From an uncultured Anaerovibrio sp. (lineage in GTDB: Bacteria > Bacillota > Negativicutes > Selenomonadales > Selenomonadaceae), in NCBI GenBank assembly GCA_902786545.1, contig CADACU010000033.1, forward strand, positions 1-32,058: a DNA stretch of 32,058 nt. Direction: 5' to 3'. Below the pieces are notes generated by a model. That model was not told the origin of the DNA and did no database searches. It saw nothing but the letters and a program-made list of their open reading frames with translations. The translations under genes and the position numbers were made by a program. Each line of letters starts with the position of its first letter. Positions within the stretch are counted from its first letter, which is position 1. Positions 16,504-19,608 of this stretch are shown here, piece after piece.

Positions 16504-17283
16504 TTAAAGCATATTCTTTAGGAAGTCCCTGGTGCGATCCTCCTGCGGATTATCGATAACCTGCTGGGCCGTCCCCTGCTCCACGATGACACCGCCATCC
16601 ATAAACACTACATGGTTAGCCGCCTCACGGGCAAAGGCCATTTCGTGGGTTACTACCACCATGGTCATATGCTCAGCCGCTAATTCCCGCATGGTTTTAA
16701 GCACCTCACCAGTCAGCTCCGGATCCAGAGCGGAAGTTGGTTCGTCAAAAAGCATGATATCCGGCTTCATACAAAGAGCCCTGGCAATGGCTACCCGCTG
16801 CTGCTGCCCACCGGACAGTCGGGCCGGATAACAATCCTTTTTATCCAAAAGTCCTACTTTTTTCAACAGAGCCTCAGCCTCTACAGTAACCTCCTGTTTA
16901 TCCCGCTTCTGGACTAATATCGGTGCCTCCAGAAGATTTTGCAGCACCGTCATATGTGGGAAAAGGTTGAACTGCTGAAACACCATTCCCGTACAGGAAA
17001 GGATTTCTCTGGCTTCCTTTTCCGAAACATACTCCGCCACATTTTCCCCATTATTTTGGGCCAGTATCCGATTCTTAATTTCAATTTTGCCGGTGTCGAT
17101 TTCCTCCAACCGGTTGATGCAACGGAGCAGCGTACTTTTCCCCGAGCCTGATGGGCCAATAATGGCCATAACTTGGCCTTTTTTTAATTCCAAATCGATA
17201 CCCTTTAAAACTTCCAGGGAGCCGAATTTTTTATGTATGTCCGTCAAACGGAGCATTACTTCCTTATTTGTCATATTTTCCAT
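16504..17283 (-). CDS. Polar amino-acid ABC transporter ATP-binding protein
   Basis: 259 residues. All ABC motifs are present: Walker A GPSGSGKST near residue 38, Q-loop VFQQFNLFPHMTV, signature LSGGQQQR near 150, Walker B IMLFDEPTSALDPE, and the H-loop VVVTHEMAF. It is closest in pattern to the GlnQ/HisP type for polar amino acids. The start at 17283 is chosen for GGAGG 7 nt before it. An ATG-initiated frame from 17322 lacks one. The start overlaps the end of the permease gene by 20 nt, so translation is coupled. The cognate binding protein gene lies beyond the IS110 element. Confidence 0.95.
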   Translation of the reverse strand: MENMTNKEVMLRLTDIHKKFGSLEVLKGIDLELKKGQVMAIIGPSGSGKSTLLRCINRLEEIDTGKIEIKNRILAQNNGENVAEYVSEKEAREILSCTGMVFQQFNLFPHMTVLQNLLEAPILVQKRDKQEVTVEAEALLKKVGLLDKKDCYPARLSGGQQQRVAIARALCMKPDIMLFDEPTSALDPELTGEVLKTMRELAAEHMTMVVVTHEMAFAREAANHVVFMDGGVIVEQGTAQQVIDNPQEDRTRDFLKNML

Positions 17284-17932
17284 AATGAGCCTCCAGCTTT
17301 TTAAATCCCCAGGTAAGAACAAAGGTCATAATAAGATAGAATACCGCTGCCACAACAAACGGCGTCATATCAAATTCCCGCTGAACAATAGTGCGGGCTA
17401 CCCGCAACAAATCATTCATGGCCAAAATATAAATAAGGGAAGTATCCTTTACCAAATTGATGGTCTCATTGCTAACCGGTGGCAGAACATGACGAATCAT
17501 TTGGGGGATAACTATACGCTGCATGGTCTGGGTATGAGTAAGCCCCAATGTCTTGGCCGCTTCATATTGCCCCCGGCTGATGGACTGAATACCTGCCCGG
17601 AAAATCTCCGCAAAATACGCAGCGTAATTTAAAGTAAACGCCAATAGGGCCGCTGCAATATCCGGCAACATGATTCCCACCATAGGCAGAGCGAAATAAA
17701 CAAACAGCAGCTGGAGCATCAGTGGCGTTCCCCGCATCAGCCAAATGTAAAACTCCATAAACCGGCTAAGGGGCTTTATTTCGGAAATTCGTCCCAGTGC
17801 CGCCAACAACCCCAGGGGCAGGGATGCTATCAATGTTATAAAGAAAATCTGCAATGTCACCTGGGTACCTTCCAGCATCAGTACCACAGTATTTAGCAAG
17901 TTATCCATAAATATCTCGTATAATCCAATCAT
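17264..17932 (-). CDS. Polar amino-acid ABC transporter permease
   Basis: 222 residues (214 if started at the second Met, 17908). About five membrane helices. The EAA loop that contacts the ATPase is typical of the HisMQ type: QYEAAKTLGLTHTQTMQRIV followed by IPQM, and the MRGTPLMLQLLFVYF segment is diagnostic. The ATG at 17932 lies within a 10-bp inverted repeat (17922-17931 with 17942-17951) and has no ribosome site nearby. The ATG at 17908 has a weak GAG 7 nt upstream. The IS110 element ends about 60 nt upstream of the start, in what should be the gap to the binding-protein gene. Confidence 0.92.
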   Translation of the reverse strand: MIGLYEIFMDNLLNTVVLMLEGTQVTLQIFFITLIASLPLGLLAALGRISEIKPLSRFMEFYIWLMRGTPLMLQLLFVYFALPMVGIMLPDIAAALLAFTLNYAAYFAEIFRAGIQSISRGQYEAAKTLGLTHTQTMQRIVIPQMIRHVLPPVSNETINLVKDTSLIYILAMNDLLRVARTIVQREFDMTPFVVAAVFYLIMTFVLTWGFKKLEAHYGKYDK

Positions 17933-17975
17933 CGATGATGGTGATTGGATTTTCCTTTCTCCCGGATTATCCGGG
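17922..17975. promoter_or_regulatory. Two hairpins in the permease leader
   Basis: AATCCAATCA (17922-17931) and TGATTGGATT (17942-17951) are a perfect 10-bp inverted repeat around the first ATG of the permease, and the palindrome ATCATCGATGAT sits partly inside. A second hairpin CCCGGA/TCCGGG (17961-17966 and 17970-17975) follows. On the plus strand it is followed by TTATTTTTT, while on the minus strand no T-run follows. They may control permease translation or be remnants of the original operon spacer. Confidence 0.4.
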
Positions 17976-18008
17976 TTATTTTTTAACCATCTCTGATATA
18001 CTTACTTT

Positions 18009-18185
18009 GGCGCTGTGGATCTGTACCTATAAAACTACAGCTTTGACTGGTATGAGGTGACTCAGACCACAGCTTTTCGTCTATTACTGTTAATCAGTTT
18101 GTTAACGCTCGACGTTTCTATTTACGTGATTACACAGCCGGATTCTCTGTGGAAGACAACTCTGTGGAAGACAACAGCGCCAATT
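18009..18185 (+). ncRNA. Candidate bridge RNA of the IS110 element
   Basis: Family knowledge: IS110 recombinases use a bridge RNA encoded in the leader, with a target-binding loop followed by a donor-binding loop. Here stem GCTGTGG (18012-18018) pairs with CCACAGC (18067-18073), enclosing an inner stem TACC/GGTA (18024-18027 and 18049-18052). The 3' side of the internal loop, TGAGGTGAC (18053-18061), is complementary to nine bases across the right junction (19503-19511). The 5' side, ATCTG, agrees in four bases with the left flank ATCTC. Further 3', AGTTTGT (18096-18102) is identical to the right end (19498-19504), as a left donor guide would be. I could not find a convincing right donor guide. 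The 5' end follows the TATACT by about 7 nt. The 3' end is a guess. Confidence 0.6.
18146..18175 (+). repeat. Tandem 15-bp duplication in the IS110 leader
   Basis: TCTGTGGAAGACAAC occurs twice in direct succession (18146-18160 and 18161-18175), just before the ribosome site of the recombinase. It may be a recent replication slip or part of the bridge RNA 3' region. Confidence 0.85.
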
Positions 18186-18208
18186 TTTCCTTAAGGAGGT
18201 GTTTCACC

Positions 18209-19384
18209 ATGTCTCTATTCTTTGTTGGAATTGATATTTCCAAGTACAAACATGATTGCTGTATTATCTCTTCAGCTGATCAGCAGGTCGTTTCAAAGTT
18301 CACCTTCAAAAACAATAAAGATGGCTTCTCTGAACTTCTAACTACTCTGCATTCTCTCTCCAATCCCAAGAACATAAGAATAGGGTTTGAATCTACTTCT
18401 CATTATGCCCTCAATCTTGAACTCTTTCTTGAGAAAGCCCACCACAGCTTTATGGAAGTTAATCCAGTTCTCATTTCTCAGTACAAGAAGTCCACTACTC
18501 TTCGCAGAACGAAGACGGACCGTATCGATTGTGAATCGATTGCCTGCTGGCTAATGACCGTAGAGTACAAACCCCATCCAAAAGGATTTTATCATGCTTA
18601 TTCTCTAAAGTCATTAACACGTTTACGGGACAAACTTATACGGCAGCGTTCTTTCTATCTCGTGAAGATCACCAATGTCCTGGATCACACTTTTCCAGAG
18701 TTTAAGCCTTTTTTCAATGAGCACTTCAGCAAGACAGCTCTGTATCTGCTAGAAAACTACGGCTCCGCAGAAAAGATGGCACATATGAATACTGCCTCTT
18801 ATGAAAGGCTATATTCTCTTTCTCGTGGAAAGTTCTCTCCTCAACAGTTCCTTGAACTAAAATCTCTTGCAACCAATACCATTGGCGTAAACAATTCCAT
18901 CTTTGAAATGGAGTTGAATACTCTTCTTACGCTTTATAAGGCTATAGCTGAACAGATATGCATTCTTGAGGCCCAAATAACCGAATTAATCGAAGAAATT
19001 CACCCTCACTACATGTCGATTCCGGGAATCGGGCCAATATCGGCAGCTGTCATCTACGCTGAATATGGAGATATCTCCAACTTCTCAAAGCCATCACAAA
19101 TGTTAGCATTTGCAGGGCTAGAGCCTGGCGTAAATGATTCCGGCACAGAAAGCCACGGTGGAAGAATGGTTAAGCGTGGATCTTCACAGCTTCGTTATGT
19201 ACTGATGAACTGTGCTCTACCATTAATCCGCTTTGATGTAATTTTTGCCGCTTACTATGCAAAAAAACGTTCAGAAGGTAAGCCACACAGAGTAGCCTTG
19301 TCCCATGTCGTCAAGAAGCTTGTCAGAGTAATTTTTGCATTGGAGAGGCAGAACACCGACTTCATACCTCAGTCTCTTCGCTGA
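18209..19384 (+). CDS. IS110-family recombinase (DEDD transposase)
   Basis: 391 residues. The N-terminal RuvC-like DEDD domain has Asp9 (FFVGIDIS), Glu61 (RIGFESTSHY), and Asp104 and Asp107 (RTKTDRIDCES). A coiled-coil region (about 230-265) follows. The C-terminal Tnp domain has the helix-hairpin-helix MSIPGIGPISAAVIYAEYGD (about 269-288) and the catalytic serine in GGRMVKRGSSQLRY (Ser325 or Ser326). All key residues are present, so the enzyme is probably active. The start at 18209 has AAGGAGGTG 8 nt before it. An ATG at 18149 is upstream but lies in the duplicated leader. IS110 recombinases cut and paste through a circular intermediate guided by a bridge RNA. Confidence 0.96.
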   Translation: MSLFFVGIDISKYKHDCCIISSADQQVVSKFTFKNNKDGFSELLTTLHSLSNPKNIRIGFESTSHYALNLELFLEKAHHSFMEVNPVLISQYKKSTTLRRTKTDRIDCESIACWLMTVEYKPHPKGFYHAYSLKSLTRLRDKLIRQRSFYLVKITNVLDHTFPEFKPFFNEHFSKTALYLLENYGSAEKMAHMNTASYERLYSLSRGKFSPQQFLELKSLATNTIGVNNSIFEMELNTLLTLYKAIAEQICILEAQITELIEEIHPHYMSIPGIGPISAAVIYAEYGDISNFSKPSQMLAFAGLEPGVNDSGTESHGGRMVKRGSSQLRYVLMNCALPLIRFDVIFAAYYAKKRSEGKPHRVALSHVVKKLVRVIFALERQNTDFIPQSLR

Positions 19385-19485
19385 CTAATATTGTCTCTCA
19401 TCCGATGCCACCTGAAATACAACTTCTTCAGATGGCTTGTTTGCTGTGCAATTTTCACGATTCATTAAAAATCTTCATTTTTTAC

Positions 19486-19491
19486 TTGACT
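19486..19491 (+). promoter_or_regulatory. -35 half of the circle-junction promoter, IS110 right end
   Basis: TTGACT near the right end has no good -10 at the right distance in the inserted state. When the ends join at the shared TC it comes to lie 17 bp upstream of TATACT at 17997-18002. This arrangement fits known IS110 biology, where excision creates a strong promoter for the bridge RNA and recombinase. Confidence 0.55.
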
Positions 19492-19570
19492 GTTTATAGT
19501 TTGTCACCTCAGTACATTATCATTTTTTCGCTTTACCGTGTCAAAGCACTAAGCCTATATATTTTACATC

Positions 19571-19608
19571 AAAAAAGGGACTATTGCAAACAACACAATA
19601 GTCCCTTT
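19571..19608 (-). terminator. Terminator downstream of the ABC binding-protein gene
   Basis: AAAGGGACTATTG (19574-19586) pairs with CAATAGTCCCTTT (19596-19608), a 13-bp stem. On the minus strand it is followed by TTTTTT, making it a strong intrinsic terminator. It would reduce transcription of the permease and ATPase genes relative to the binding protein, a common design in such operons. Confidence 0.92.

Follow-up and report, generated by a model that had tools for sequence, protein, structure and literature searches.

A probable IS110 bridge RNA whose target loop appears to read translation-initiation signals

Elements of the IS110 group carry a long non-coding leader ahead of the recombinase gene, and the locus described here raises the question of what such a leader encodes in nature and what site it is aimed at. 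The window, the whole stretch of 32,058 nucleotides from an uncultured Anaerovibrio sp. that was analysed, holds one element of this family, and an initial annotation made from its letters had proposed a bridge RNA with readable guides. IS110 bridge RNAs and their reprogramming are established (PMC11208160, PMC11208158, PMC11187229). We conclude that the leader very probably encodes such an RNA, directing the recombinase, and that its target loop is written for the translation-initiation region of genes. Comparison among relatives carries the case for the element's ends, the target and apical stems, the class of target, the way the guides suit flanks and ends, and the constancy of CA as the right core. 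Absent from the initial annotation was the apparent identity of the right target guide with a Shine-Dalgarno sequence, the element lying between that sequence and the start codon.

The element, its recombinase and its promoters

The ends of the element were fixed through relatives aligned at other sites, where the left end reads CGTATAATCC and the right end AGTTTGT, and they agree with those implied in the initial annotation (Table 1). In L070, another genome of the genus, the homologous site is free of the element and runs continuously as CATAAATATCCCCTTTTT. A DNA search found a single copy in the element's own draft genome; its nearest named relative, in Anaerovibrio lipolyticus DSM 3074 (L002), has 98.5% DNA identity over 17917-19509. 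Scanning genome contigs once yielded sixty-four relatives; viral contigs, scanned twice, each time added one and the same further relative (L094 and L109, on one contig), and the family search around G087 covered 2 genomes.

The recombinase matches the NCBIfam model NF033542, 'IS110 family RNA-guided transposase', at 220 bits against a cut-off of 140, and has PDB matches to 9t56 (ISCro4) and 8wt6 (IS621). Both a RuvC-like DEDD domain and a Tnp domain with a catalytic serine are present; the serine and all but one of the four acidic residues could be placed, the glutamate being left unnumbered. If a two-residue offset of the PDB chain is assumed, D104 stands opposite D102 and S311 opposite S241 as these residues are given for IS621, and D9 and D107 presumably correspond, under the same assumption, to D11 and D105. 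Stops interrupt the frame used in 4 of 30 recombinase genes (L009, L013, L037 and L040). The long non-coding region lies upstream of the gene in the IS110 group and downstream in the IS1111 group; here 292 nt of non-coding sequence ahead of the recombinase start codon and 120 nt past the stop give the IS110-group layout. Rfam at its gathering threshold returned four tRNAs and no other match in the whole window.

Two promoters may serve the leader. Joining the ends would yield TTGACT-17-TATAAT, and the same boxes occur in relatives, pointing to a putative junction promoter at the circularised ends of the kind known for IS110 elements (PMC11208160). The hexamer TATACT, inside the element, probably acts as an internal promoter for the bridge RNA. 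All 42 close and all 12 more distant leaders, which are related and not independent, have a -10 hexamer 5-9 nt (in most cases 6) ahead of RNA position 1, and TG precedes it in 28 and 7 of these, respectively; when the upstream 50 nt were shuffled by letter, a hexamer anywhere in them was found in 15.7 (maximum 24) close and 5.0 (maximum 9) more distant leaders. With a -10 box directly before the RNA, a resident element may make bridge RNA without circularising.

Table 1. Coordinates of the element, the putative bridge RNA and its guides, and the displaced gene in the window
Feature	Position	Strand	Remarks
IS110-family element	17917..19504	+	Ends fixed via relatives aligned at other sites
Element termini	17917..19504	+	Left CGTATAATCC, right TTTATAGTTTGT
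Cores	17915-17916; 19505-19506	+	CT left; CA right
Recombinase	18209..19384	+	391 aa, intact; Pfam PF01548 and PF02371
-35 box TTGACT	19486..19491	+	Right end; putative junction promoter with TATAAT 17919-17924, 17-bp spacing
-10-like hexamer TATACT	17997..18002	+	TG at 17994-17995; 6 nt ahead of RNA first base
Putative bridge RNA	18009..18181 (about)	+	Limits from conservation, likely end clamp 18009-18012 / 18178-18181 and upstream -10 box
Target-binding loop	18013..18072	+	Outer stem 18013-18023 / 18063-18072, bulged A 18019; covariation
Target-loop apical stem	18038-18040 / 18047-18049	+	Three pairs; covariation
Left target guide TAT-AAAAC-TA	18028..18037	+	TAT faces start codon (CAT on this strand); next five bases face spacer
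Right target guide TGAGGTG	18053..18059	+	Core complement 18058-18059; pairs with CACCTCA 19505-19511
Candidate target-loop handshake guide AC	18060..18061	+	Would pair with right-end GT 19503-19504
Donor-binding loop	18087..18137	+	Outer stem 18087-18094 / 18129-18137; conserved, no two-sided changes
Donor-loop apical stem	18104-18107 / 18113-18116	+	Covaries
Left donor guide AGTTTGT	18096..18102	+	Identical to right end 19498-19504
Right donor guide TACGTG	18123..18128	+	Reverse complement of CACGTA (core CA plus 17917-17920); left end CA then CGTA
Candidate donor-loop handshake base A	18129	+
Target gene	17264..17908	-	Start codon 17906-17908; Shine-Dalgarno split off at 19505-19510

Structure of the leader RNA

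The initial annotation had placed the RNA at 18009-18185 around a stem of GCTGTGG (18012-18018) and CCACAGC (18067-18073). The stem matches letter by letter; the RNA probably runs from the proposed start to about 18181, a span that includes a 15-bp tandem duplication in its 3′ part, CTCTGTGGAAGACAA (18145-18159 / 18160-18174), absent in the near-identical L002. Forty-two distinct leaders of close relatives align with few gaps and conserve the two-loop plan, the donor loop repeating the plan of the target loop; in L026 the apical loop of the donor side holds an extra UUCG hairpin. The lack of a conserved stem-loop in related leaders had been named as grounds for giving up the bridge-RNA reading, and in these 42 leaders pairing is kept in 97.7% of pair cells.

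Among the close leaders, two-sided changes occupy 26 cells compared with 8.6 after shuffling (0 of 500 shuffles); the end clamp accounts for 23 of them and the target stem for 3, so that covariation is thin on close relatives alone; the number of pairs changed on both sides (3) was reached in 233 of 500 shuffles. When distant relatives are included (19 leaders, with the donor outer stem and the clamp excluded from the structure), 96.9% of cells pair and two-sided changes affect 10 of the 17 pairs that make up the target stem and the apical stems of the two loops, in 35 cells against 9.2 shuffled (0/500), and the 15 further pair types were reached in 290 of 500 shuffles. Two stem-loops with internal loops are thus found across relatives, the donor outer stem being suggested by its conservation: 92.9% of its cells are paired in the close leaders, with zero two-sided changes and one pair that fails in 15 of the 42.

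Folding and alignment had been proposed together as a check, and they gave different answers: the relatives' covariation bears the structure out, whereas single-sequence folding energy was not significant (z -1.25 and -1.13) and produced a different fold. We retained the structure backed by covariation. An alternative that pairs the two ends of the RNA was tried and rejected. Close relatives by themselves do not separate it from the main fold, and once distant relatives are included it pairs in 85.4% of cells against the 96.9% of the main fold, with 29 two-sided cells against 13.3 expected. The end-joining fold nevertheless appears to have partial support, and because its outermost part covaries (5 of 7 pairs), a short end clamp in the bridge RNA is likely.

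The covariance model R1, built on the close leaders, recovers the bridge RNA in distant relatives and matches in 9 of 299 genomes of the phylum, the window's own genome among them. L027, whose shorter loop was missed by the search pattern, stands outside A1 and the guide tests and is kept in the leader alignment; L058 is excluded from A1 and from the close-relative tests; and the fetched stretches of L007, L038, L039, L044, L048 and L052 contain no readable bridge RNA.

Guides, flanks and translation start signals

In 35 of the 51 relatives with enough left flank, an ATG lies 4-12 nt outside the left end on the minus strand and opens at least 100 codons, a signature missing in the other 16 insertions and present at 2.9% of 20,400 random left-flank positions; right flanks read outward have it in 0 of 46. 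The right flank reads CACCTC in 40 of 49 loci and CACCT in 46 of 49 (right-flank counts are without L040, whose right end was not located, and loci cut by contig ends were dropped where the flank was needed). Taken from the minus strand, CACCTC becomes GAGGTG, which is a Shine-Dalgarno sequence. Several loci share one genome but occupy different sites. With a start codon on its left and a Shine-Dalgarno on its right, the element separates these two signals of a gene that faces it, in fixed orientation, as with IS900. In the window the displaced gene looks like an amino-acid ABC-transporter permease, a name drawn from its sequence and its neighbours.

Two further repeats border this arrangement. 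A perfect 10-bp hairpin at the left end (17922-17951) is followed by the near-invariant TCCTTTCTCC, whose minus strand gives GGAGAAAGGA ahead of the displaced gene. We guess that GGAGAAAGGA, behind the terminal hairpin, could be a substitute Shine-Dalgarno that the hairpin keeps near that gene; the idea stays a guess because the spacing is long, although the hairpin folds (z -0.98). An inverted repeat, AAAGGGACTATTG/CAATAGTCCCTTT (19574-19608), between the binding-protein gene and the element, is likely a terminator or attenuator of the transporter operon.

The exact complementarity of TGAGGTGAC (18053-18061) to GTCACCTCA (19503-19511), read in the initial annotation as a guide to the right junction, holds, and this nine-base match is the right target guide together with the core and the putative handshake guide. 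In 35 of the 42 loci that have both parts, the combined segment, GAGGTGAC, is complementary to all 8 bases across the right junction, and in 41 it is so for at least 7; the left donor guide (7 nt), also recognised from the outset, is identical with the right end in 40 of these loci. The matches are therefore not due to chance. The next base of the right guide varies, and pairing with the flank of its own copy is seen in 21 of 42 loci, compared with 8.6 expected (0/20,000 shuffles). Guide and flank are altered together in L009 (GAGATG/CATCTC) and L043 (GGAGTG/CACTCC); L012 has the flank CACTCC beside an unchanged guide, a fit of 6/8. Parallel changes link the left donor guide to the right end in L041 (AGTTAGT) and L043 (AGCTAGT). 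The two loci whose left donor guide departs from the right end, L005 and L024, have a right end of GA, not GT, and a target-loop handshake of T, not A, so that the handshake changed in both readable loci with a changed end, perhaps in one event.

The right donor guide, reported at first as not found, is present. It reads TACGTG in 39 of 42 leaders and CACGTG in L024, L042 and L051, where the left end is unchanged and one mismatch results. The usual donor-loop handshake base, A, requires a T before the left core, and 44 of 53 flanks have one; in the three leaders with CACGTG the handshake base fits the flank in L024 only (1/3). The left core is CA in 39, CT in 7, TA in 5 and AA in 2 of 53 loci, and all 49 right cores read CA. 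IS621 top strands are cut after the core (PMC11208158), and a varied left core beside a constant right one is expected if strands are cut and exchanged as in IS621, with the target supplying the left core and the donor the right.

Some ten bases, not the four allowed it initially, make up the left target guide (TATAAAACTA, 18028-18037), which in most loci has the form TAT-nnnnn-TA. CAT lies opposite TAT in 31 of 51 loci when the best of three registers is taken per locus. In the window copy the fit to the flank CATAAATATC (17906-17915) is shifted by one base from the commonest register, with 6 identities, one U.G pair and 3 mismatches. Comparing other insertion sites, as had been suggested at the start, gives 179 matches between the five variable bases and their own left flanks against 147.8 expected (n=51), a total above that of every one of 20,000 shuffles; with one locus per distinct RNA (n=37) the figures are 124 and 102.8. 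The signal is found in two registers one base apart, and the next two registers are without it. A fixed single register was rejected for this reason, the two-register fit being unlike what is expected of a rigid guide; insertions at some off-target sites are tolerated, according to Durrant et al. (PMC11208160).

Guide conservation mirrors the target. TAT (UAU in the RNA) has an entropy of 0.15 bits and GAGGTG one of 0.08, compared with 1.34 for the five positions that face the spacer: bases matching a signal are nearly frozen and those facing the spacer hypervariable. Over 237 close pairs the five spacer-guide positions differ at 0.554 per site and the remaining RNA, with other variable guide-side columns excluded, at 0.031. 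For the 22 closest pairs among 26 of the 30 recombinase genes (the four with stops dropped), fourfold-degenerate sites differ at 0.31 and the guide at 0.44, and the spacer guide thus evolves at or somewhat above the neutral rate.

A more distant branch, made up of L097-L107 (found by the model), L058 and L108, has a CT core and a site shifted by a few bases, and here the left guide carries the Shine-Dalgarno (CUCCU and similar). Left guides agree with their own flanks at 55 of 66 positions over 11 loci, with 39.5 expected (0/20,000), and distinct guides alone at 43 of 54, with 29.7 expected (7/20,000); L102 fits poorly (1/6). This test is without L100 (contig-end flank), L108 (a circle) and L096 (close-type ends), and the register of L103 was set by eye. 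Right donor guides and left ends, compared by eye, correspond in L097 (CUAG/CTAG), in L100 and L102 (CGAG/CTCG) and in L098 and others (CAAG/CTTG), and mismatch in L106. Target guides therefore track the insertion site and donor guides match the element's ends, the right one by eye in distant lineages.

Several of these relatives merit separate mention. In L098, L099, L101, L104, L105 and L107 the left end, (C)TTGTAT, restores AAGG ahead of the target gene, whose ribosome-binding site may in this way survive insertion. L108 (NZ_OY725734.1), a circular 'plasmid' record of 1563 bp from Monoglobus pectinilyticus, contains an IS110 relative and nothing else. It is probably an element that had circularised and was captured during assembly, but its junction has 5 bases (CACCT) beyond a simple joining of the ends. 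Four Lactobacillales plasmid relatives, L110-L113, were examined and left out of the counts: annotated minus-strand genes start near the left end in L111, L112 and L113 (L110 is ambiguous), the guide TACCTCC of L111 equals its own flank by eye, and R1 matched L110, L111 and L113, not L112. L112 lies on an Enterococcus faecium plasmid, immediately upstream of a sat4 gene.

Interpretation and comparison with known systems

The conserved stem-loops and the guides that track flanks support the bridge-RNA reading of the initial annotation, as do the order of target and then donor loop, the sense of the guides and the position in the leader, all as in IS621. We propose that the RNA would pair both with the joined ends of its element and with the site in the chromosome, thereby directing the recombinase. 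One target guide would carry the Shine-Dalgarno GAGGTG(A), the other would read the start codon, CAT, through UAU with one U.G pair, and the part of the left guide past UAU would read the spacer, which varies among lineages. Insertion would take place at the 3′ edge of the Shine-Dalgarno with the element facing the gene, the element would excise as a circle, and the RNA would be produced and bound by the recombinase. For the window's bridge RNA with joined ends, the predicted target is CATAAATATCACCTCAG.

One competing account accepts the bridge RNA and sees in the gene-start site a side effect: such regions happen to fit the guide, and damaging insertions elsewhere were lost. Start regions are AT-rich and tolerate insertion, and the left flanks are AT-rich like the guide. 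Against this, position and orientation are exact, with a start codon on the left in 35 of 51 loci and on the right in none of 46, and a nearly invariant guide segment reads the Shine-Dalgarno bases; and when flanks are shuffled among these same AT-rich sites, the fit is gone. We regard this account as improbable.

Accounts in which the RNA does not choose the site fare worse. That the recombinase protein recognises it, the leader being an mRNA leader that controls recombinase translation, would suit a leader placed upstream of the recombinase's own Shine-Dalgarno, yet guide bases go with flanks and ends copy by copy, and the family is RNA-guided where tested (PMC11208158) and by its NCBIfam name; we give this very little credence. 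Agreement of guide and flank in each copy might also arise if the matching leader bases were copied from the site at insertion and guided nothing. Identical leaders stand beside different flanks, however, for example in L020/21/23/25, L030/31, L037/46/47/53/54, L059/60, L061/62 and L063/64/65, so that a guide rewritten at each insertion was rejected, and of the three accounts this is the one we find hardest to credit.

Returning to a bridge RNA written for translation starts, we favour, with moderate confidence, a wider view in which an IS110 branch of the Bacillota evolved guides that read such starts, with Shine-Dalgarno and start segments fixed and a spacer segment that drifts at or above the neutral rate, opening new genes. 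The branches differ in which guide holds the Shine-Dalgarno. Aiming at a near-universal motif may let one guide serve many genomes; because the ribosomal anti-Shine-Dalgarno is nearly universal, the guide should be valid in almost any bacterial host. Generality and specificity would go together in such a guide RNA, with bases held constant wherever the target is universal and free elsewhere. The collection also offers a natural series of guides and targets, with handshake-base changes and one-base register shifts, from which pairing rules of bridge recombinases could be drawn.

As far as IS621 is described in the material available to us, the likeness extends to where the RNA lies in the recombinase leader, to its internal loops, of which the target loop precedes the donor loop, to the sense of all four guides, the catalytic residues, the putative junction promoter and perhaps the handshake bases. 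The two differ in core and target: IS621 has a CT core and targets REP elements, whereas the present element has a CA core and a target made of Shine-Dalgarno and start codon. A -10 box lies directly before the RNA in 54 leaders here and goes unmentioned in those portions of the IS621 accounts. The seekRNA of IS1111/IS110 elements is likewise an RNA from a non-coding region that guides target choice (Siddiquee 2024, PMC11187229), although the parts of that account available to us describe no ribosome-binding-site target. A search of titles and abstract openings, covering few subscription papers and no bioRxiv preprints, yielded no paper that joins a bridge RNA to a Shine-Dalgarno or start site, and the accessible parts of PMC7823733, PMC7288454, PMC11187229, PMC3196728 and PMC1525189 gave no such link.

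The nearest precedent for the target is IS900 of Mycobacterium avium subsp. paratuberculosis, an IS110-family element with the target motif CATGNNNNNNTCTCCTT (PMC8141618), said to 'target translation initiation signals' in the 1997 title of Doran et al., as it appears in the reference list of the same paper. No guide RNA is described in the portion of PMC8141618 that we could draw on. In CATGNNNNNNTCTCCTT, start codon, spacer and Shine-Dalgarno follow one another in the same order as here, and the motif is nearer to the site of the distant relatives, whose left guide carries CUCCU, than to that of the window's clade. That an IS110 element targets translation starts was thus already known from IS900; what is new here is a guide RNA apparently aimed at such a target, which would probably explain at the level of RNA why some IS110 elements, IS900 among them, land on translation start signals, as was observed long ago.
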